NCBI GenBank assembly: GCA_027315385.1
Contig: DAHUYD010000124.1
Coordinates: 1-64,000, forward strand
Reading direction: 5' to 3'
Origin: Acidobacterium sp.
Lineage (GTDB): Bacteria > Acidobacteriota > Terriglobia > Terriglobales > Acidobacteriaceae
Length of the DNA stretch: 64,000 nt
Below the pieces are notes generated by a model. The model did no database searches. It was not told the origin of the DNA and saw nothing but the letters and a program-made list of their open reading frames with translations. Of the stretch, positions 2,908 to 12,288 are shown in pieces; position 1 is the first letter of the stretch; each line of letters begins with the position of its first letter. Position numbers and translations under genes: made by a program.

Positions 2908-5760
2908 ATGAGACGATTTCTGATTGCTGGGGCCCTGAGCCTGGCCGGCAGCGCGATCTATCTGTTCGCGTTTCCGGGGGCGACTCTCTGGTACGAGGGC
3001 GCCGTGCTCTTCCATATAGTTGCGGGCGCGCTGTTTCTGGTGCTCGGGGCGCCGTGGATGGCGCGGCTGATGCGCGGCCGCGGCGTATGGGAGAAGATCG
3101 GCTGGGGAGTGCTGCTGCTGGGCGGAGTTCCCGGCGCGATCATCATCTATACCGGAGCGCGCCGGCCTATGTGGCCGGTTCTCTACACCCACGAAATTGT
3201 TTCTGTCCTCGGCAGCGCGGTGCTGTTGTTTGTGTGGGCCGGAGAGCCGGGGAAGCTTCGCGCACTACAGGGAACGCTCCCGCGGACCTCGGCGCGCCTG
3301 GCCTTGTGCCTGGCGCTTGCCGGAGCCATCGTGGGCGGGGCGTGGTGGGTGCGGACGGTGCCGTGGCAGCGCGCCTACGCGATTCATAATCCCTCGATCG
3401 CGCCGGGCTCGATGGATGAGGAAGGCGCGGGGCCGAAGAGCCAGTTCTTCCCGAGTTCGGCCGAGACGTCAACGGGCAAGACCGTTCCCGAGGATTACTT
3501 CGTCGACTCGGCCGCGTGCAGGCAGTGCCACGCCGACATCTATCGCGAGTGGGAAAGTTCCGCCCACCACTATTCGTCCTTCAACAATCAGTGGTACCGG
3601 CAGGCGATCGTCTACATGCAGGAGGTGGACGGAGTACAGGCATCAAAGTTCTGCGCCGGCTGCCACGACGCGGCGCTGTTTTTCCCCGGCAACTTCAACA
3701 CGCCGATCAAGAACCGCATCTTCACGCCGGCGGCGCAGGCCGGGATCGGCTGCGTGGTGTGCCACTCCATCCGGGCGGTGCGCAGCACGATGGGCAACGG
3801 CGCGTACACCATTGAATATCCGGCTCTGTTCAAGCTGGTCGACACAAAGAATCCATACCTGCGCAAGCTGATCGATTTTCTGATCGAAGAAGATCCGGAG
3901 CCGCACCGGCGCACCTTTATGAAACCGTTCATGCAGAACAATCCGGCCGAGTTCTGCTCGGCGTGCCACAAGGTGCATCTGGATGTTCCGGTGGATCATT
4001 ACCGCTGGATTCGGGGGTTCAACGATTACGACAACTGGCAGGCCAGCGGAGTCTCCGGCTTCGGGGCGCGCTCTTTCTACTACCCGCCGCACCCTGAAAA
4101 CTGCGTGGACTGCCACATGCCGCTGGTGCACTCGAACGACGCGGGAGAAGTGAACGGGTTCATCCACTCGCATCGCTTCGTCGCGGCGAATTTCGCATTG
4201 CCCTTTGTCAACAAGGACAAGAAGCAGCTCGACGACACGGAGCGCTTCCTGCAGGAGGGCAAGGTCAGCGTGGACATCTTCGCGGTATCGCCGGAGAGTG
4301 CCGGGACCGCGGTGATCCAGGGCGCGGCTGCCACGCCCATGCAGGCGGAAACGACGTTTGCGGTGGGTGAAGAGGCGGAGCGCGGGATCACGGGCATGAC
4401 CGGCGAGGTGAACGTCGCCCCAGTGACCGCACCTCTGAATCGCGTGCAGGGGACGGTGGTTCCTGGCGAAACCGCTCGCGTGGACGTAGTGGTGCGTACG
4501 CTTGGCGTCGGACATTTCTTTCCTGGCGGCACGGTCGATGCGGTGGACTGCTGGCTGGAACTGAAGGCCACCGACGATCAGGGCAAGGTTCTGTTCTGGA
4601 GCGGCATGGTTGAGGACCATGGCAAAGGGCCGGTGGATCCCGGCGCGGAATTCTACCGCGGGCTGGCCATCGACGCGCACGGCAATGCGACGGACAAGCG
4701 CAACGCGTGGGCGGACCGCGCCACCGTCTATGTGCACCTCATTCCGCCGGGAGCCGCGGACACTGTTCACTTCCGGCTGCAGATCCCGAAGAAAGCGCGC
4801 GGGCACATTCACCTGGTGGCGCGCCTGAATTACCGGAAATTCCCCTGGGTTCTCACCCAGTTTTCATTCGCGGGGAAGTTCATCAACACCAAGCCGAACG
4901 ATGTAACGCCTGCATACGACGACCGGAAGATGGTCTTCACGGCCAGCACCGCGGATGTTTCCGGCAAGATCAAGTCCATCCCCAACGTGCCCATCGTCGT
5001 GATGGGGCAATCCACCGCGGAACTGACGGTGCTGCCGGCGGGATCGCCGCAGCCCGCCGCGCAGGCAGCGACCGAGAAGGCCGACTGGCATCGGTGGAAC
5101 GATTACGGAATCGGGCTGTTTTTGCAGGGCGACCTGAAGGCGGCGGAAATGGCCTTCAACCGGGCGGCGCAATGCGATCCGGCGAATCCGGACAGTTGGG
5201 TGAACATCGGGCGTGTCCGGCTGCAGGAAGGAAACCTCGCGGGCGCAACGGTGGTGCTCGACAAAGCCCTCGAGCTCGCGCCCAATCTCGCGCGGACGCA
5301 TTACTTCCTGAGCCGCGTGCTGCGCCAGCAGGGCGATTACGCCGGAGCCATCGCGCAGCTCAGGTTCGTGATTGCGCAGTATCCGTACGACCGCGTGGTG
5401 CGCAACGATCTGGGCCGCGCGTATTTTCTTGAGAGGCGCTATGCGCCGGCGCGGGACCAGTTCCTCAGGGCCATTTCCATCGATCCGGAAGATCTGGAGG
5501 CGAACTACAACCTGATGCTCTGCTATACCGGTCTGGGCAACGACAAATTATCCGCAGCTTATGAGGAACGCTACATGCGCTTCAAGGAAGACGAGTCGGC
5601 GCAGACGCTGACCGGCCCATACCGCGAGAAGCATCCATTCGACAACCTGGAGCGCCAGCCGATTCACGAGCACGACTCGGTGCCGCTGGCCGAGGCGAAT
5701 GCGAACATCGGTCCTGATCTGAACCTGGTCCTGCCGCCCGCATCGGGGGGTGGCCGGTGA
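2908..5760 (+). CDS. Membrane-anchored pentahaem c-type cytochrome with C-terminal TPR repeats
   Basis: This 950-aa protein has three parts. Residues 1-150 form about five membrane helices, with histidines inside helices 2 and 4 (LFHIVAGALF, YTHEIVSVLG) that could ligate haem b. Residues about 195-420 carry five CXXCH haem-c sites: CRQCH 204, CAGCH 249, CVVCH 282, CSACH 350 and CVDCH 399. A beta-rich segment follows, and residues about 725-900 hold TPR repeats (e.g. PDSWVNIGRVRLQEGNLAGA). The haem part resembles cytochrome c554/c'-like multihaem proteins and implies periplasmic electron transfer. The start ATG has no strong Shine-Dalgarno. The stop overlaps the next gene (GTGA), so the two are translationally coupled. 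The electron donor and acceptor cannot be told from sequence. Confidence 0.85.
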   Translation: MRRFLIAGALSLAGSAIYLFAFPGATLWYEGAVLFHIVAGALFLVLGAPWMARLMRGRGVWEKIGWGVLLLGGVPGAIIIYTGARRPMWPVLYTHEIVSVLGSAVLLFVWAGEPGKLRALQGTLPRTSARLALCLALAGAIVGGAWWVRTVPWQRAYAIHNPSIAPGSMDEEGAGPKSQFFPSSAETSTGKTVPEDYFVDSAACRQCHADIYREWESSAHHYSSFNNQWYRQAIVYMQEVDGVQASKFCAGCHDAALFFPGNFNTPIKNRIFTPAAQAGIGCVVCHSIRAVRSTMGNGAYTIEYPALFKLVDTKNPYLRKLIDFLIEEDPEPHRRTFMKPFMQNNPAEFCSACHKVHLDVPVDHYRWIRGFNDYDNWQASGVSGFGARSFYYPPHPENCVDCHMPLVHSNDAGEVNGFIHSHRFVAANFALPFVNKDKKQLDDTERFLQEGKVSVDIFAVSPESAGTAVIQGAAATPMQAETTFAVGEEAERGITGMTGEVNVAPVTAPLNRVQGTVVPGETARVDVVVRTLGVGHFFPGGTVDAVDCWLELKATDDQGKVLFWSGMVEDHGKGPVDPGAEFYRGLAIDAHGNATDKRNAWADRATVYVHLIPPGAADTVHFRLQIPKKARGHIHLVARLNYRKFPWVLTQFSFAGKFINTKPNDVTPAYDDRKMVFTASTADVSGKIKSIPNVPIVVMGQSTAELTVLPAGSPQPAAQAATEKADWHRWNDYGIGLFLQGDLKAAEMAFNRAAQCDPANPDSWVNIGRVRLQEGNLAGATVVLDKALELAPNLARTHYFLSRVLRQQGDYAGAIAQLRFVIAQYPYDRVVRNDLGRAYFLERRYAPARDQFLRAISIDPEDLEANYNLMLCYTGLGNDKLSAAYEERYMRFKEDESAQTLTGPYREKHPFDNLERQPIHEHDSVPLAEANANIGPDLNLVLPPASGGGR

Positions 5761-7484
5761 GATTCTCGGGAGCCGCGCTCGTTCCCACCGCCGTGCTCGC
5801 GCTTGCCGGGCTCACGGTGCTGGCGGCGGTTGGCGGAACGGCTTCACGGCCGGCTGCTCCGCCGGAGCATATCCACTTCGCCGACATCACGCGGTCAGCC
5901 GGCATCCACTTCGTCCACAACAACGGCGCATTCGGCAAAAGATATCTGCCGGAGACGCTCGGGCCGGGCGTCGCCTTCATCGACTACAACAACGACGGCT
6001 GGCAGGACATCTTCTTCGTGAACGGGACGCGCTGGCCGGGGCATCCCGGCAGCGTGACCACGCCGGCGCTTTACCGCAATAATCACAACGGCACATTCAC
6101 CGATGTGACGAAGCAGGCGGGCCTGGCGATCCCCATGTACGGCGAGGGCGTGGCCGCCGGCGACTACCTGAATAACGGAAACGACGACCTCTTCGTGACG
6201 GCGTACGGCGGCAATCACCTCTTCCGCAACAACGGCAACGGCACCTTTACCGATGTGACGAAGGAAGCGGGGCTGGAAAAATCAGGCATGGCGGGTCTGA
6301 GCACCAGCGCGGCATGGGTGGACACCGACCGCGACGGACGTCTGGACCTGCTGGTGGCGAACTACGTGCAGTGGTCGCCGCAGGCGGACTTGTACTGCAC
6401 CATGGACGGCGTGCACAAGTCCTACTGCACGCCGGAGTCGTACAAAGGGGCGTCGCTGGAGCTGTGGCACAACAACGGCAACGGCACCTTTACCGACGTG
6501 ACAAAGCAGGCCGGACTCTACGATCCGAGCTCGAAGAGTCTGAGTATCGCGATTCTGGACGCCAACCAGGACGGCTGGCCCGACATCGCCGTGAGCAACG
6601 ACACGGAGCCCAATAAGCTCTACATCAACAACCGCAACGGCACGTTCACCGAGAAGGGGATTCCCGAGGGCATTGCCTACAGCGAAGACGGTGTGGCGCG
6701 CGCGGGCATGGGCATTGCCGCCGCGGACTACAACCAGTCCGGCTACCCGAGTCTCGTCATCACGAACTTTTCCAACCAGATGATCGCGCTCTATCAGAAC
6801 CAGGAGAACGGACTGTTTGTGGACCAGGCGCCCACATCCGCGATTGGTCACACCAGCCTGCTCACGCTCGGCTTCGGCTGCTTCTTCTTCGACTACGATC
6901 TCGACGGGTGGCCGGATATCTTCGTGGCCGACGGGCACCTGGATCCCACTATCGAAGCGATCCAGCGGCGCGTGAAATACGCCGAACCGCCGCACCTGTA
7001 CCACAACCTCGGCGGCAGGAATTTCGCGGACGTGGCTGCGCAGATGGGAGCGGCGTTCGATGCGCCGCGCGTGGCGCGGGGAGCGGCTTACGGGGACATC
7101 AACAACGACGGCGCGCCGGACATCGCGATCACGACGAACGGGGGGCCGGCGCAGCTTTTCGAGAATGAGGGCGGGACCAACCACGCGGTGCGCATCAGGC
7201 TGGTGGGAACGAAATCGAATCGAGACGGGATCGGATCGGTGGTGTGGGTGCAGTCGGACACCACGTCGCAGAAGCAGATGCTGACGAGCGGGTCGAGCTA
7301 TCTGTCAGCCAGCGAGCTGGTGCTGACCTTTGGACTGGGAACATCGACGCAAGCGAACGTCATCGAGGTTCACTGGCCGAGCGGCGCGGTGACGGAGCTG
7401 AAGAACGTCAGGGCAGATCAGATCCTGACCATTCGCGAAGGCTCGGGGATCATCCACGCGGAGCCGTTTGAGAAGCGGGGGTAA
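5757..7484 (+). CDS. ASPIC/UnbV (CRTAC1-like) FG-GAP repeat protein
   Basis: This 575-aa exported protein begins at a GTG that overlaps the previous stop by 4 nt. A hydrophobic N-terminus (residues about 5-30) looks like a signal peptide or anchor. Several FG-GAP/VCBS calcium-binding repeats follow, with acidic loops of the type DYNNDGWQD, DTDRDGRLD, DANQDGWPD, DYDLDGWPD and DINNDGAPD. These alternate with the phrase NNGNGTFTDVTKQAG and predict an integrin-alpha-like beta-propeller. The C-terminal part (GSSYLSASELVLTFGLG, VIEVHWPSGAVTEL) is the ASPIC/UnbV domain. Coupling to the multihaem TPR protein suggests a joint extracytoplasmic complex. The family's molecular function is not established. 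Confidence 0.9.
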   Translation: MRFSGAALVPTAVLALAGLTVLAAVGGTASRPAAPPEHIHFADITRSAGIHFVHNNGAFGKRYLPETLGPGVAFIDYNNDGWQDIFFVNGTRWPGHPGSVTTPALYRNNHNGTFTDVTKQAGLAIPMYGEGVAAGDYLNNGNDDLFVTAYGGNHLFRNNGNGTFTDVTKEAGLEKSGMAGLSTSAAWVDTDRDGRLDLLVANYVQWSPQADLYCTMDGVHKSYCTPESYKGASLELWHNNGNGTFTDVTKQAGLYDPSSKSLSIAILDANQDGWPDIAVSNDTEPNKLYINNRNGTFTEKGIPEGIAYSEDGVARAGMGIAAADYNQSGYPSLVITNFSNQMIALYQNQENGLFVDQAPTSAIGHTSLLTLGFGCFFFDYDLDGWPDIFVADGHLDPTIEAIQRRVKYAEPPHLYHNLGGRNFADVAAQMGAAFDAPRVARGAAYGDINNDGAPDIAITTNGGPAQLFENEGGTNHAVRIRLVGTKSNRDGIGSVVWVQSDTTSQKQMLTSGSSYLSASELVLTFGLGTSTQANVIEVHWPSGAVTELKNVRADQILTIREGSGIIHAEPFEKRG

Positions 7485-7493
7485 CGGCGGCGC

Positions 7494-7889
7494 TTACTTC
7501 CGGTTTTTCTCAACGGGCACGATGACCGGACGCCGCAGCGGCACCATCGCGGCGCTGGGCTCGCCGACTTTTTGCATGCGCGAGAGCATCTCGGTCCGCA
7601 CGTACTCGACGAAATCCTGCATTTGGCGGTTCATCGCCTCCATACGCCCGCGCATCTGGAGGATGATCGCGATGCCGGCGATGTTGACGCCGAGGTCGCG
7701 CGCCAGGTTCAGGATGAATTCCAGGCGCTCCAGGTCCTCGTCCGTGTAAAGGCGGGTGTTGCCCTCGGTGCGCGACGGCTTCAGCAGTCCTTCGCGCTCA
7801 TAGAGCCGCAGCGTTTGGGGATGGATATCGTACATTTCGGCCACCGCCGAGATCATGTACGCGCCTTTGGATTTGCGTTTGGTGGGCAT
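7494..7889 (-). CDS. hspR: MerR-family heat-shock repressor HspR
   Basis: This 131-aa DNA-binding protein carries a MerR-type helix-turn-helix in residues 11-60 (AVAEMYDIHPQTLRLYEREG, then LLKPSRTEGNTRLYTDEDL). A coiled-coil region follows (residues 75-105), and there is no cysteine metal site. The start MPTKRKSKGAYMISAVAE and the wing match HspR, which represses dnaK operons by binding HAIR sites, usually with DnaK as co-repressor. It is the last gene of the minus-strand run dnaK ... dnaJ ... hspR, an order seen with HspR in Actinobacteria. A HAIR-like inverted repeat lies upstream of dnaK (12333-12353), consistent with autoregulation. Confidence 0.85.
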   Translation of the reverse strand: MPTKRKSKGAYMISAVAEMYDIHPQTLRLYEREGLLKPSRTEGNTRLYTDEDLERLEFILNLARDLGVNIAGIAIILQMRGRMEAMNRQMQDFVEYVRTEMLSRMQKVGEPSAAMVPLRRPVIVPVEKNRK

Positions 7890-7910
7890 ATCCGTTGACC
7901 CTTTCTGTTC

Positions 7911-8372
7911 TCACAGAAACAGCCGGCACTCCGTTTCCTGCTCCGTGACGGGCTTGCCGATGGCGATGCGCCGCGGGAACAGGTTGCGGAGATGGCCGCC
8001 ATAAATCCGATATGGGACCGTCACCTGCATGGCGAAGCCGCCGGCAGCTTCAATCGTCATGTCGACGGCGTCGACGTAGCCTTCCGGGGAGGGCTCGGCG
8101 AGGCTGACATTCGCCCCCAGCGCGACGGCCTGGAGCTTGCCCTTGCGAGCGCGTTCGTTCACGTGGTCGGCCAGCAGCTTCCATTTTCGCGCGGGGTCCT
8201 GGGGAAGCCGAGGAATCTCGAGCACCACCCGGGCAATTTCTCCTTCCGGGCTCATGGAGAAGCCGAATGGCCCCAGCTCGCCGTAGCGCCGCAGGATAAG
8301 GCGCGCGTAGGTCATCGCCGCGTTCATGAGCTGCGTGGCCATGTGCCGGTTGCGATCGGCATCGCTGCTCAT
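7911..8372 (-). CDS. Conserved hypothetical protein in the dnaK-hspR cluster
   Basis: I do not recognise a named domain in this 153-aa soluble protein. Residues 1-45 look helical and the rest is mixed alpha/beta. Segments such as FGFSMSPEGEIARVVLEI and KWKLLADHVNERARKGKLQAVALGANVSL suggest a compact fold, and there is no signal peptide or membrane helix. Its ATG overlaps the stop of the upstream GNAT gene (ATGA at 8369-8372), so translation is coupled, and hspR follows 21 nt later. Position in the chaperone cluster hints at a stress role, but that is only context. Coding potential is supported by the overlap and by its place in the operon. Confidence 0.7.
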   Translation of the reverse strand: MSSDADRNRHMATQLMNAAMTYARLILRRYGELGPFGFSMSPEGEIARVVLEIPRLPQDPARKWKLLADHVNERARKGKLQAVALGANVSLAEPSPEGYVDAVDMTIEAAGGFAMQVTVPYRIYGGHLRNLFPRRIAIGKPVTEQETECRLFL

Positions 8373-8878
8373 TGCGCTCCCTCTCTCTCCACGCGATAGA
8401 CGCAGTGATCGTAGTCCCGCCAGAAGACCATCCGGTGGAGGGTGAGGCCGTTCTTTTCCGCAACGCGCCGAGAGGGGAGATTCTCGGGCCGGATGAGGGA
8501 GATCACGTGGCCGCAGCCCAGGGCCGCGAAGGCGTAGTCGCGCACGGCGCGCGCGGCCTCAGTGGCATAGCCGCGATTCCAGCAGTCCCTGCGCACGTGG
8601 TACCCGATCTCCACCTCGGGAGGGCCGTCGGGGTCGTGCCATACGGGGCCGCAGTCGCCAATCACTTCTCCGGTTTCCCTGAGCATCATGGCCAGCAGTC
8701 CGGTGCCGGAGGGATAGCGCTCCATCTGCTTCTCGATCCACACGTCCACTTCATCGCGAGTGAGCGCGCGCGGATACCAGCGCATCGCCTTCGGGTCGCC
8801 CCACACGTCGAACATCGCCGCCGCATCCTGGGGTATCATCTCGCGCAGCAGCAATCGGGGAGTCTCCAGCGAGAGCAT
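8369..8878 (-). CDS. GNAT-family N-acetyltransferase (RimJ/RimL-like)
   Basis: This 169-aa acetyltransferase transfers acetyl from acetyl-CoA to an amino group. The start LETPRLLLREM, the middle EIGYHVRRDCWNRGYATEAARAVRDYAFA (the acetyl-CoA loop being RDCWNRGYATEA) and the late NLPSRRVAEKNG motif are typical of the RimJ/RimL type that modifies N-termini or small molecules. I chose the ATG at 8878 because the alternative GTG at 8896 lies inside dnaJ. From 8878 the gene begins 2 nt after the dnaJ stop. It sits in the chaperone operon between dnaJ and the 153-aa protein. The substrate is unknown. Confidence 0.88.
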   Translation of the reverse strand: MLSLETPRLLLREMIPQDAAAMFDVWGDPKAMRWYPRALTRDEVDVWIEKQMERYPSGTGLLAMMLRETGEVIGDCGPVWHDPDGPPEVEIGYHVRRDCWNRGYATEAARAVRDYAFAALGCGHVISLIRPENLPSRRVAEKNGLTLHRMVFWRDYDHCVYRVEREGAQ

Positions 8879-8880
8879 GA

Positions 8881-10056
8881 CTAAACCTTCGCCCACAGGG
8901 CGCCGCGCGGGTCGTCCGGATTCAGCCTCGCAAACTCGCGCAGGATTTCCCGCGAGCGCTCGTCGCGCACCTGGGGTACGGCGACCTCCACGGTGACAAT
9001 CTGATCGCCGCGCACGCCTTCTTTCGTTGCCGAGGGTACGCCACGCTCGCGCATGCGCAGTTTCTGGCCGCTCTGGGTGGCCGGCGGAATGCGCAACTGG
9101 GCGCGTCCATCGATGGTGGGCACCTCAATGCGTCCGCCCAGGGCGGCTTCAGCGACCGTCACCGGAATCGTGAGCAGAATATCGTCGCCCTGGCGCGTGA
9201 ACACCGCATGGGCGCCGGTGCGGATGATGAGGTAGAGGTCGCCGGCCGCACCGCCATTTGTTCCGGCATTGCCTTTCCCCGCAAGCCGGATACGCTGGCC
9301 GTCGCGGGTGCCTGGCTTGATGCGGAACTCGAGCGGCTCGGTGCGATAGACGGTTCCTTCGCCGTGGCAGGTGGGGCAGGCGTGCTGCACCTTGCCCGAT
9401 CCGCCGCAGCGCGGGCACTGGATGTTGAACTTCATCTGCCCGCCCATCTGGGTGACCTGGCCGGTGCCGTGGCACTCGGGGCATGGCTGCGCGCCGCCGG
9501 TGGAGGCTCTTCCGTGGCAGGTGGGGCAAAGCTCCTGGCGCTGGATCTGGAGCCGCGCGGTGCCGCCGCGGATGGCTGTCCAGAAGTCCACGTTGACCTG
9601 GTATTCGAGGTCGGTGCCCGGATGGGGCCCCTGCTGCGCCCGCTGCTCGCGGTTGAACATGCCGGAGAAAATATCGCGAAAGCTGCCCCATCCCGCGCCG
9701 CCCGCGCCCGGTGCTTCCTCGCTGAAATCGAAGCCGCCGAAATCGAAGGGCACACCCTGCGCGTGGCCCGCGCCGCGACCCGCGCCCGCGCGCGCCGCCG
9801 CCTCGGCCGCCGCAGGGTCAATCTGGTCGGAGTAGAAGCCGAACTGGTCGTAGATCTTCCGCTTCTTGTCGTCGGAAAGAATGTCGTTGGCCTCGGAGAT
9901 TTCCTTGAATTTCTCCTCGGCCTTCTTATCGCCCGGATTGACGTCGGGATGATACTTGCGGGCCAGCTTGCGGAAGGCCTTGCGAATATCCTCCGTCGTG
10001 GCGGCCTTTTTCACCCCGAGCGTGGCGTAATAGTCTTTGTGCTGGGTCGGTGGCAT
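8881..10056 (-). CDS. dnaJ: Chaperone protein DnaJ (type I)
   Basis: This 391-aa co-chaperone stimulates DnaK ATPase and delivers unfolded substrates. The J domain occupies residues 5-75, with the HPD motif in [18 protein letters not shown] Gly-rich linker and Phe-containing segment follow (about 90-140). The zinc-finger region holds four CXXCXGXG-type repeats ([32 protein letters not shown]; about 183-245), and beta-sandwich client-binding domains follow. All four cysteine pairs are intact, so this is a full type I protein. It lies downstream of dnaK with a 56-aa gene between them. No grpE lies in this cluster. Confidence 0.95.
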
Positions 10057-10104
10057 GTTGTCTCAAACAGACTATTGCACTCGGCAGAAAAGCGTCCTCT
10101 GAAA

Positions 10105-10275
10105 TTAGTTCCAGACCTTCCAGGCATCAACCGGCTCAACACGCCACAGCAGGTCCGGCTCAAGCTCCTGCATCTTCAGGACGAAGGCGCTGGCCTGCTT
10201 TTCGGTGTCGAACAGGACCCGATTCGTGACTTTCCCTGCACGCAATTGTTCGCATTTCCACATTTTGTCGCTCAT
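10105..10275 (-). CDS. Small conserved protein between dnaK and dnaJ
   Basis: This 56-aa soluble protein (start MSDKMWKCEQLRAGKV) has no known domain. It has one Cys, a helix-like centre (DTEKQASAFVLKMQELEPDLL) and an aromatic end (WRVEPVDAWKVWN). I chose the ATG at 10275; a GTG at 10287 would add four residues. It lies in the same direction as dnaK and dnaJ, 69-81 nt downstream of dnaK and 48 nt upstream of dnaJ, so it is probably part of that operon. From memory, similar short proteins occur in other Acidobacteriota genomes, which I could not check here. Function is unknown. Confidence 0.6.
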   Translation of the reverse strand: MSDKMWKCEQLRAGKVTNRVLFDTEKQASAFVLKMQELEPDLLWRVEPVDAWKVWN

Positions 10276-10309
10276 CGTTGCGTCCACAATTGCGTCTGTG
10301 CCTAAACGC

Positions 10310-10333
10310 GGGGCGTTCCTCGCGGAACGCCCC
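10310..10333. other. Perfect 10-bp hairpin between dnaK and the 56-aa gene
   Basis: The arms GGGGCGTTCC (10310-10319) and GGAACGCCCC (10324-10333) pair perfectly around a TCGC tetraloop. On the minus transcript no U-run follows, so it is unlikely to be an efficient intrinsic terminator. It could be an mRNA stabiliser, processing site or partial attenuator that makes dnaK mRNA more abundant than the distal genes. The hairpin itself is visible; its role is inference. Confidence 0.6.
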
Positions 10334-10356
10334 CCTGAGCCCTGAGATCTGAGCCC

Positions 10357-12288
10357 TTATTTCTTCTCTTCCACATCCACGTACTCGGCGTCGATCACGC
10401 CTTCGTCCTTCTTCTGCTCGGTGGCGCCCTCGGCGGCGGCCGCGCCGTCGGTGGGCGGAACACCCGCGGCCCCGGCCGTCGCCGCGTTGGCCTTGTACAT
10501 GGCCTCGGCCAGCTTGTGCGACGCCTGCGTCAGCTTCTCGCGGGCGGCGTTCATCTCGGCCGGACTGGGGCTGCCTTCCAGCGTCTTCTTCGCCTCGGCC
10601 AGCGCCGACTCGACCTCGGCCTTCTCTGTGCCGCTGACCTTGTCGCCGCTCTCCTTCAGCATCTTCTCCATGTTGTAGACCAGGCCGTCGAGCTGGTTGC
10701 GCGCTTCGATCTCCTCGCGCTTCGTCTTGTCCTCGGCGGAGTGCGCTTCGGCTTCCTTCGCCATCCGCTCCACTTCTTCCTTGCTGAGGCCGGAAGACGA
10801 GGTGATGGTGATCTTCTGGTCCTTGCCCGTGGCATTGTCCTTGGCCGTTACGTTCAGGATGCCGTTGGCGTCGATGTCGAAGGTAACCTCGATCTGGGGC
10901 ACGCCGCGCGGCGCCGGAGGGATGCCGCTGAGCTTGAACTTGCCGAGTGTGCGGTTCTGCGCCGCCATCGGCCGCTCGCCCTGAAGCACGTGCACCTCCA
11001 CTTCCGTCTGGCTGTCGGCCGCCGTCGAGAAGGTCTCCGTTTTCTTCGTCGGAATCGTCGTGTTGCGCGGGATCATCGTCGTCGCCACGCCGCCCAGCGT
11101 TTCGATGGAGAGCGTCAGCGGCGTCACGTCCAGCAGCAGCAGGTCCTTCACCTCGCCGGCCAGCACGCCAGCCTGCACGGCCGCGCCTACGGCGACCACT
11201 TCGTCGGGGTTTACGCCCTTGTGGCCTTCCTTGCCGAACAGGTCTTTCACGAGCTGCTGGATGCGCGGCATGCGGGTCTGTCCGCCGACCAGCACGACTT
11301 CGTTGATCTTGTTCGCGTCCACGCCGGCGTCGGCCATCGCCTTCTTACAGGGCTCGACAGAACGCTGAATGATGTCCTCCACCAGCGATTCGAGCTTGGC
11401 CCGCGTGAGCTTCTTCACCAAGTGCTTCGGCCCGCTCGCGTCGGCCGTGATGAATGGCAGGTTGATCTCCGTCTCCATCGCCGTGGACAACTCGATCTTG
11501 GCGCGCTCGGCGGAGTCGCGCAGCCGCTGCAGCGCCATCTCATTGCCCTTGGCGCGCAGATCCAGGCCCTCGTCCTTCTTGAACTCTTCAGTGAGCCAGT
11601 CCACGATGCGCTGGTCGATGTTATCGCCGCCGAGGTGCGTGTCGCCGTTTGTGGACTTGACCTCAACGACGCCTTCGCCCACTTCGAGGATGGAGATATC
11701 GAAAGTTCCGCCGCCGAAGTCGTACACGGCGATGATCTCGTCCTTCTTCTTGTCGAGGCCGTACGCGAGCGCAGCGGCCGTGGGCTCGTTGACAATACGC
11801 TTTACATCGAGGCCGGCAATCTTGCCCGCGTCCTTGGTGGCCTGGCGCTGCGCGTCATTAAAATAAGCCGGGACCGTGATTACGGCTTCGGTCACGGCGC
11901 CGCCCAGATGGTCCTCGGCCGCCTTCTTGAGCTTCTGCAGGATCAGCGCCGAGATTTCCGGCGGGGTATAGAGCTTGCCCTGCGCCTCAATGGCAACGTG
12001 GTCGCCCTGCTGGACGACTTTGTAGGGAACCATCTTCATCTCGTCGTTGACTTCGTTAAAGCGGCGGCCCATAAACCGCTTGATGGAGTAAACGGTGTTC
12101 GCGGGATTGGTGATGGCCTGGCGTTTGGCGACCTGGCCCACGAGCCGCTCCCCGGACTTGGTGAAGGCCACCACGGAGGGGGTCGTCCGCCCACCCTCTT
12201 CATTGGCGATGACTTTGGGCTCGCCGCCCTCCATCACCGCGACGACCGAATTGGTCGTCCCCAAATCGATGCCGATAATCTTTGCCAT
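10357..12288 (-). CDS. dnaK: Chaperone protein DnaK (Hsp70)
   Basis: This 643-aa ATP-dependent chaperone has the N-terminal signature [19 protein letters not shown], the second signature [14 protein letters not shown] (near 195) and the third [17 protein letters not shown] (near 335). The linker [21 protein letters not shown] leads to the substrate-binding beta domain, and a helical lid ends in a Gly/Ala-rich tail with the acidic terminus [13 protein letters not shown]. It is the head of the gene run 56-aa protein, dnaJ, GNAT, unknown, hspR. A HAIR-like operator overlapping a TTGACA box sits 45-65 nt upstream of its start, so HspR control is likely. The product is complete and normal in length. 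Confidence 0.97.

Follow-up and report, generated by a model that had tools for sequence, protein, structure and literature searches.

The window analysed here (64,000 nucleotides, positions 1 to 64,000 of contig DAHUYD010000124.1 in the Acidobacterium sp. assembly GCA_027315385.1) carries two overlapping genes, encoding a membrane multihaem cytochrome with TPR repeats and an FG-GAP/ASPIC beta-propeller protein, which together form a genuine unit that is old and widely distributed in Acidobacteriota. In the favoured reading, a quinone-linked protein that combines cytochrome b with pentahaem c has a TPR arm in the periplasm, and this arm cooperates with the propeller, a secreted subunit; a probability of roughly 0.58 was assigned to this reading, within which we infer the haem b, the quinol chemistry, the direction of electron flow and the physical docking. 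An earlier proposal made from the window alone (the first-pass annotation) was that the two proteins form an extracytoplasmic electron-transfer unit. This is strongly supported by the conservation of the pair, the co-inheritance of one ASPIC clade with the cytochrome, membrane histidines of the cytochrome b type and a match to a pentahaem fold. No description of the gene pair was found in the literature on UnbV, CRTAC1 and FG-GAP proteins with multihaem proteins.

Anatomy of the gene pair

The cytochrome had been described as a 950-aa chain with about five transmembrane (TM) helices, five CXXCH sites (at 204, 249, 282, 350 and 399) and C-terminal TPR repeats, and all of these features were recovered by open reading frame (ORF) prediction, Pfam searches and AlphaFold modelling. 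The GTGA overlap with an FG-GAP/ASPIC-UnbV propeller gene was likewise confirmed. Features are given below in window coordinates.

2908-5760, + strand: cytochrome ORF, ATG start, 950 aa
2908-3378, + strand: five-TM domain, putative cytochrome b, residues 1-157 (AF2 helices, pLDDT about 89)
3013-3015, + strand: H36 codon (TM2), putative haem b ligand, invariant in 69/69
3190-3192, + strand: H95 codon (TM4), putative haem b ligand, invariant in 69/69
3475-4257, + strand: pentahaem c domain, residues 190-450 (PF13435; Foldseek match to 5ze8)
3517-3531, + strand: haem c motif 1, residues 204-208 (CRQCH), 113/113, CX4CH in some relatives
3652-3666, + strand: haem c motif 2, residues 249-253, 113/113
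3751-3765, + strand: haem c motif 3, residues 282-286, 113/113
3955-3969, + strand: haem c motif 4, residues 350-354, 113/113
4102-4116, + strand: haem c motif 5, residues 399-403, 113/113
4420-5037, + strand: Ig-like beta domain, about residues 505-710 (beta strands in the AF2 model, at about 515-708)
4513-4515, + strand: H536 codon in GHFFPGGT, candidate distal haem ligand, invariant in 113/113
5089-5526, + strand: TPR repeats, residues 728-873 (PF07719/PF14559 and others, E down to 2.5e-16)
5590-5673, + strand: conserved C-terminal tail ...NLERQxIHEH, residues 895-922
5757-5760, + strand: GTGA stop/start overlap of the cytochrome and ASPIC genes
5757-7484, + strand: partner ORF, GTG start, 575 aa; FG-GAP/ASPIC (CRTAC1-like) beta-propeller with N-terminal signal or anchor (PF13517, PF07593)
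7227-7430, + strand: UnbV_ASPIC domain, residues 491-558 of the partner (PF07593, E 1.8e-19)

The domain anatomy and the two-gene unit are well supported. Chance ORFs or a wrong start were ruled out by conservation across dozens of genera. Cytochrome_C554 (PF13435) was placed by Pfam at residues 203-287 of the cytochrome, and TPR families were placed at about residues 740-870. In the partner, FG-GAP_3 (PF13517) was found in eight stretches (166.8 bits), and UnbV_ASPIC (PF07593) scored 67 bits, above its cut-off of 23.4. Several partner proteins start with signal-peptide-like or lipoprotein-like sequence, and among solved structures, human CRTAC1 (9etn, E 1e-17) is the nearest to the partner. 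The partner resembles CRTAC1/ASPIC-UnbV proteins in its FG-GAP repeats with DxDxDG motifs and in its ASPIC domain; what sets it apart from those in the literature is the association of its clade with a membrane cytochrome of the multihaem type. We know of no settled function for the ASPIC/UnbV family, which is conserved up to human CRTAC1. A CRTAC1-family FG-GAP gene has been reported beside hydrazine-synthase homologues, among periplasmic multihaem proteins of which some have c554 domains (PMC12758564); the haem protein of that cluster is a different one, and its description mentions neither a cytochrome b domain nor a TPR arm.

The window genome encodes one such cytochrome and eight ASPIC genes. 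The neighbours of the pair in the window, a solute-binding protein upstream and MerR, DnaJ and DnaK genes downstream, are apparently unrelated to it; the downstream genes (7494-12288, - strand), in which the MerR-family regulator is HspR-like, form an ordinary heat-shock cluster.

Conservation of the pair within Acidobacteriota

In-depth coverage was of Acidobacteriota genomes. A scan of GTDB contigs, using search patterns that reach close relatives only, returned 76 loci, all titled Acidobacteriota, and a phylum sample of 199 genomes contained 61 with a match. Genes that were rarely neighbours had been named as the result that would speak against a unit, and the opposite was found: the ASPIC gene lies directly after the cytochrome in 83/86 loci with enough downstream sequence (some genomes counted twice), and in the phylum sample alone, 18/20 testable genomes with full-length cytochromes have the pair. 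Among the 83 pairs, the intergenic gap is -4 in 38, -1 in 21 and 0 in 9. The pair is also kept in relatives from other families with only 30-40% identity (L118-L122 and L124), and in one further locus (L123) the ASPIC gene lies 1.9 kb further on. The fusion order, which had looked unusual in a single window, is widespread within the phylum. Two genomes (L133 and L134) encode the cytochrome but have no ASPIC gene in its vicinity, so the partner is not an absolute requirement.

In a tree of 124 ASPIC proteins, all 63 paired proteins fall in one clade with only four labelled as unpaired inside it, and one of these four (L053) is a broken copy behind its own cytochrome. The outermost branch of this clade is weakly supported, and the next branch inwards (61/63 paired) is fully supported. 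As judged from the tree, the cytochrome and the paired ASPIC clade are inherited together. An ASPIC clade exclusive to the cytochrome was ruled out, with relatives at about 50-56% identity found in other contexts, beside two-component systems or other FG-GAP genes. Near relatives of the partner in L148-L151 adjoin response regulators and apparent sensor kinases, and three of these proteins have NRR-F-like N-termini (possible Tat signals). ASPIC lipoprotein-like genes were also seen in another conserved cluster (L139-L142), which also encodes a protein of about 286 aa and a second FG-GAP protein and contains more FG-GAP genes.

A third gene, encoding TPR, FG-GAP and ASPIC domains, follows the pair in 31/43 loci with room for it. 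The window genome has a gene of this type unlinked to the pair, on another contig (C115, L138 3403-6882; 1159 aa). At one locus (L107 10586-15235), the ASPIC partner is naturally fused with the downstream third gene in a 1549-aa ORF. A wider conserved operon was considered and rejected, since, on clustering of flanking ORFs, no consistently linked genes emerged beyond the cytochrome, its ASPIC partner and the third TPR-ASPIC gene.

Pentahaem and putative cytochrome b domains

All five CXXCH sites are kept as haem c motifs throughout the 113 homologues. Foldseek with residues 1-725 returned a single significant match, the pentahaem cytochrome c552 of Thermochromatium tepidum (5ze8; E 8.9e-11, prob 1.00, TMt 0.62), and profile comparison matched the T. 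tepidum c552/PHC pentahaem fold (E 1.5e-8) and reached cytochrome c554 and MccSep as well. The NCBIfam ExtKL model NF040886 was matched by 28/31 members, far under its cut-off (23.6 bits against a curated 250), which leaves the protein outside that equivalog. By its fold and profile matches, the haem domain falls into the pentahaem (PHC) family of ExtKL and c552, a placement that the first-pass annotation had not foreseen. ExtKL, Gsu2801 and the cable-bacteria PHCs have been grouped as pentahaem plus Ig-like proteins, with c552 as a structural homologue (PMC11976967). The window protein shares the order of a pentahaem domain followed by an Ig-like domain with this family (ExtKL and Gsu2801 of Geobacter, cable-bacteria sPHC/lPHC, T. 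tepidum c552 and MccSep). Unlike the described PHC proteins, which are extracytoplasmic cytochromes, it adds an N-terminal five-TM domain with ligand-like histidines, C-terminal TPRs and an overlapping ASPIC gene.

Beyond the CXXCH motifs, H220, H422 and H536 are invariant in the 113 sequences, H333 is present in 108 and H357 in 96; these five extra conserved histidines would be enough for bis-His ligation of five haems. The GHFFPGGT stretch with H536 in the Ig-like domain aligns with GHSIPDG-Sec of MccSep, giving a GHxxPxG loop in line in both proteins, a weak but suggestive correspondence.

The pentahaem domain could instead be an enzyme in which an open haem position reduces a small substrate, with haem b feeding in quinol electrons and the ASPIC protein as an accessory subunit. 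Pentacoordinated hemes have been noted in PHC proteins, which are counted as potential catalysts (PMC11976967), and the loss of H333 or H357 in some relatives could leave one haem open there. The loop shared with MccSep, which bears Sec in that protein, points the same way, but the alignment is weak by itself and the window protein has no selenocysteine, with Thr at the aligned position. All five candidate distal histidines are kept in the window clade, and neither a substrate nor a catalytic lysine was seen: all five motifs end in His, with no NrfA-type CXXCK, and PF02335 (NrfA) was matched by only 1/31 members (E 0.056). An enzymatic role is regarded as unlikely, and the preferred reading of the pentahaem domain is that of an electron conduit.

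The AlphaFold model of the cytochrome places high-confidence helices at residues 2-21, 27-54, 60-82, 86-111 and 124-156. The buried histidines noted in the first-pass annotation correspond to H36 and H95, and across the 69 members with the five-TM domain, in which mean column identity is 24%, H36, G40 and H95 are invariant. Positive loop charges, judged by inspection, suggest an N-in/C-out orientation with the haems outside, in which case H36 and H95 would sit at the ends of TM2 and TM4 that face the periplasm.

In distant members, TM2 carries Hx17H and TM4 carries Hx13H, the four-His layout of dihaem cytochromes b. Each of the 13 proteins examined from the sister clade shows both spacings exactly, as do further distant members, and both appeared in about 1% of residue shuffles of one sister-clade protein. 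The window protein has one such pair (H36/H95), where the relatives have both with exact spacing. Since only this pair is kept, the window clade would be a reduced one-haem form; it looks as if the periplasmic haem b was kept and the cytoplasmic one lost.

Profile searches gave matches at the margin. One relative (L128) matched prokaryotic cytochrome b561 at E 9e-4 (19.5 bits, under the curated cut-off of 30.1), another (L129) matched DUF4405 at E 1.2e-4, also under its curated cut-off, and the membrane domain of the window protein matched no cytochrome b profile. The NapC/NirT/CymA profile (PF03264) scored 15.8 bits, below its cut-off of 24.1. In a Foldseek search with the membrane domain, the top four matches were all NarI, a quinol-oxidising cytochrome b that likewise has five TM helices, at non-significant E values of 0.5-1.1 and with low TM-scores. 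NarI differs from the window protein in binding two haems and in lacking a fused haem c part.

CbcL unites, in a single polypeptide, a membrane part that presumably binds haem b and a periplasmic multihaem c part. The window protein is similar to the CbcL/MtrH/MtoC family by analogy of architecture, with a putative haem b membrane part fused to multihaem c, and no sequence match of the cytochrome to this family was found. It differs in that its membrane domain comes first, is smaller and has one His pair, and in that its haem c part is of the PHC type with Ig-like and TPR regions. The CbcL/MtrH/MtoC family of quinone-linked cytochromes has been surveyed previously (PMC6295460).

Cytochrome b is the probable identity of the membrane part, an assignment absent from the first-pass annotation. 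This part may alternatively be a mere anchor, with H36 and H95 as ligands of a metal or of quinone and with electrons arriving from soluble periplasmic carriers. Members without the five-TM domain (L115, L118, L119 and L125-L127), which have a single anchor or a signal only, keep the haem/TPR part, and the missing profile match of the window's own membrane domain is also in line with an anchor. Against this stand the exact dihaem-type His spacing of the relatives, the b561 match of L128 and the invariance of H36 and H95 in an otherwise variable domain, and a plain anchor is judged improbable. L118 and L119 still have an ASPIC neighbour.

The TPR arm and the propeller in a proposed complex

Haem c attachment takes place outside the cytoplasm. 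From residue 157 to the end of the modelled part of the cytochrome, no TM helix was predicted and the TPR region is soluble, which would place the TPRs on the same side of the membrane as the haems. Four cytochrome c assembly homologues were found in the window genome.

In 92 loci, the cytochrome carries the TPRs and its ASPIC partner is without them. In the sister clade, the cytochrome ends after the Ig-like domain and has no TPRs; they are found instead at the C-terminus of the ASPIC partner (L128, L129, L153, L154 and L161) or on the next downstream gene (L155, L156, L158, L159 and L160). In the remaining members, L157 runs off its contig, no TPR was seen in L162 and no ASPIC gene was seen in L163. 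Such varied gene arrangements of cytochrome, TPR and propeller modules are as expected for parts of one complex. Because TPR-ASPIC fusions are common in the phylum, this argument is strong for a functional unit and moderate for direct contact. The suggestion that the TPRs may dock the propeller gained indirect support from the placement of TPRs on the propeller protein or the next gene where the cytochrome is without them.

The C-terminal tail contains H920 and H922, which are invariant in 73/73 close members and kept in 98/113 overall. The HxH tail was rejected as an ASPIC-docking motif, as it is kept without an adjacent ASPIC gene and is absent in L121, L122 and L124, which have one.

Co-expression without contact was also considered, in which both are envelope proteins, the TPRs act on others (for example, the product of the third gene) and the propeller works at the cell surface as a protein in its own right. 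The frequent third gene offers such an alternative partner, and the two genomes without an ASPIC neighbour and the near ASPIC paralogues in unrelated contexts, such as two-component systems, are compatible with separate roles. The near-universal immediate overlap of the genes, the single ASPIC clade that tracks the cytochrome and the presence of TPRs on the ASPIC gene exactly where the cytochrome is without them all argue for a joint role, and of the alternatives weighed here separate action is held to be the least probable.

Under the preferred reading of a quinone-linked cytochrome with a docked propeller, the five-helix domain would be a reduced cytochrome b, derived from or sister to a dihaem cytochrome b, in which H36 and H95 bind a single haem b close to the periplasmic side of the membrane. 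With its five haems c, the protein would then carry about six haems in total. The membrane domain would exchange electrons with the quinone pool, and electrons, most likely moving from quinol outwards, would pass to the pentahaem c / Ig-like domain fused to it in the periplasm, which would act as a wire. The periplasmic C-terminal TPR arm would hold the secreted ASPIC propeller subunit and may in this way bring the haem chain close to the acceptor or stabilise the complex. The broader proposal, that these proteins constitute a new quinone-linked cytochrome b/c class across Acidobacteriota in which a CRTAC1-type propeller is a structural subunit on a TPR arm that moved between genes, is put forward tentatively, as a possible generalisation.

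By inspection, the window genome also encodes alternative-complex-III-like genes. On a further contig (C29, L135 1-5695), multihaem ORFs with 8, 11 and 5 CXXCH motifs and a putative membrane cytochrome b ORF lie directly before cytochrome bd oxidase-like genes, possibly a further electron-transfer cluster. Neither gene group is linked to the pair; together, they would provide several possible onward electron routes.

ASPIC/UnbV propellers are numerous in Acidobacteriota, and the near-universal operon with the cytochrome gives one clade of them a concrete, testable role in electron transfer. The pair also supplies a candidate quinone-linked multihaem cytochrome for a major soil phylum about whose respiration little is known. 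If the propeller is indeed a subunit of a respiratory complex, this would be the first bacterial role assigned to the ASPIC/UnbV family.
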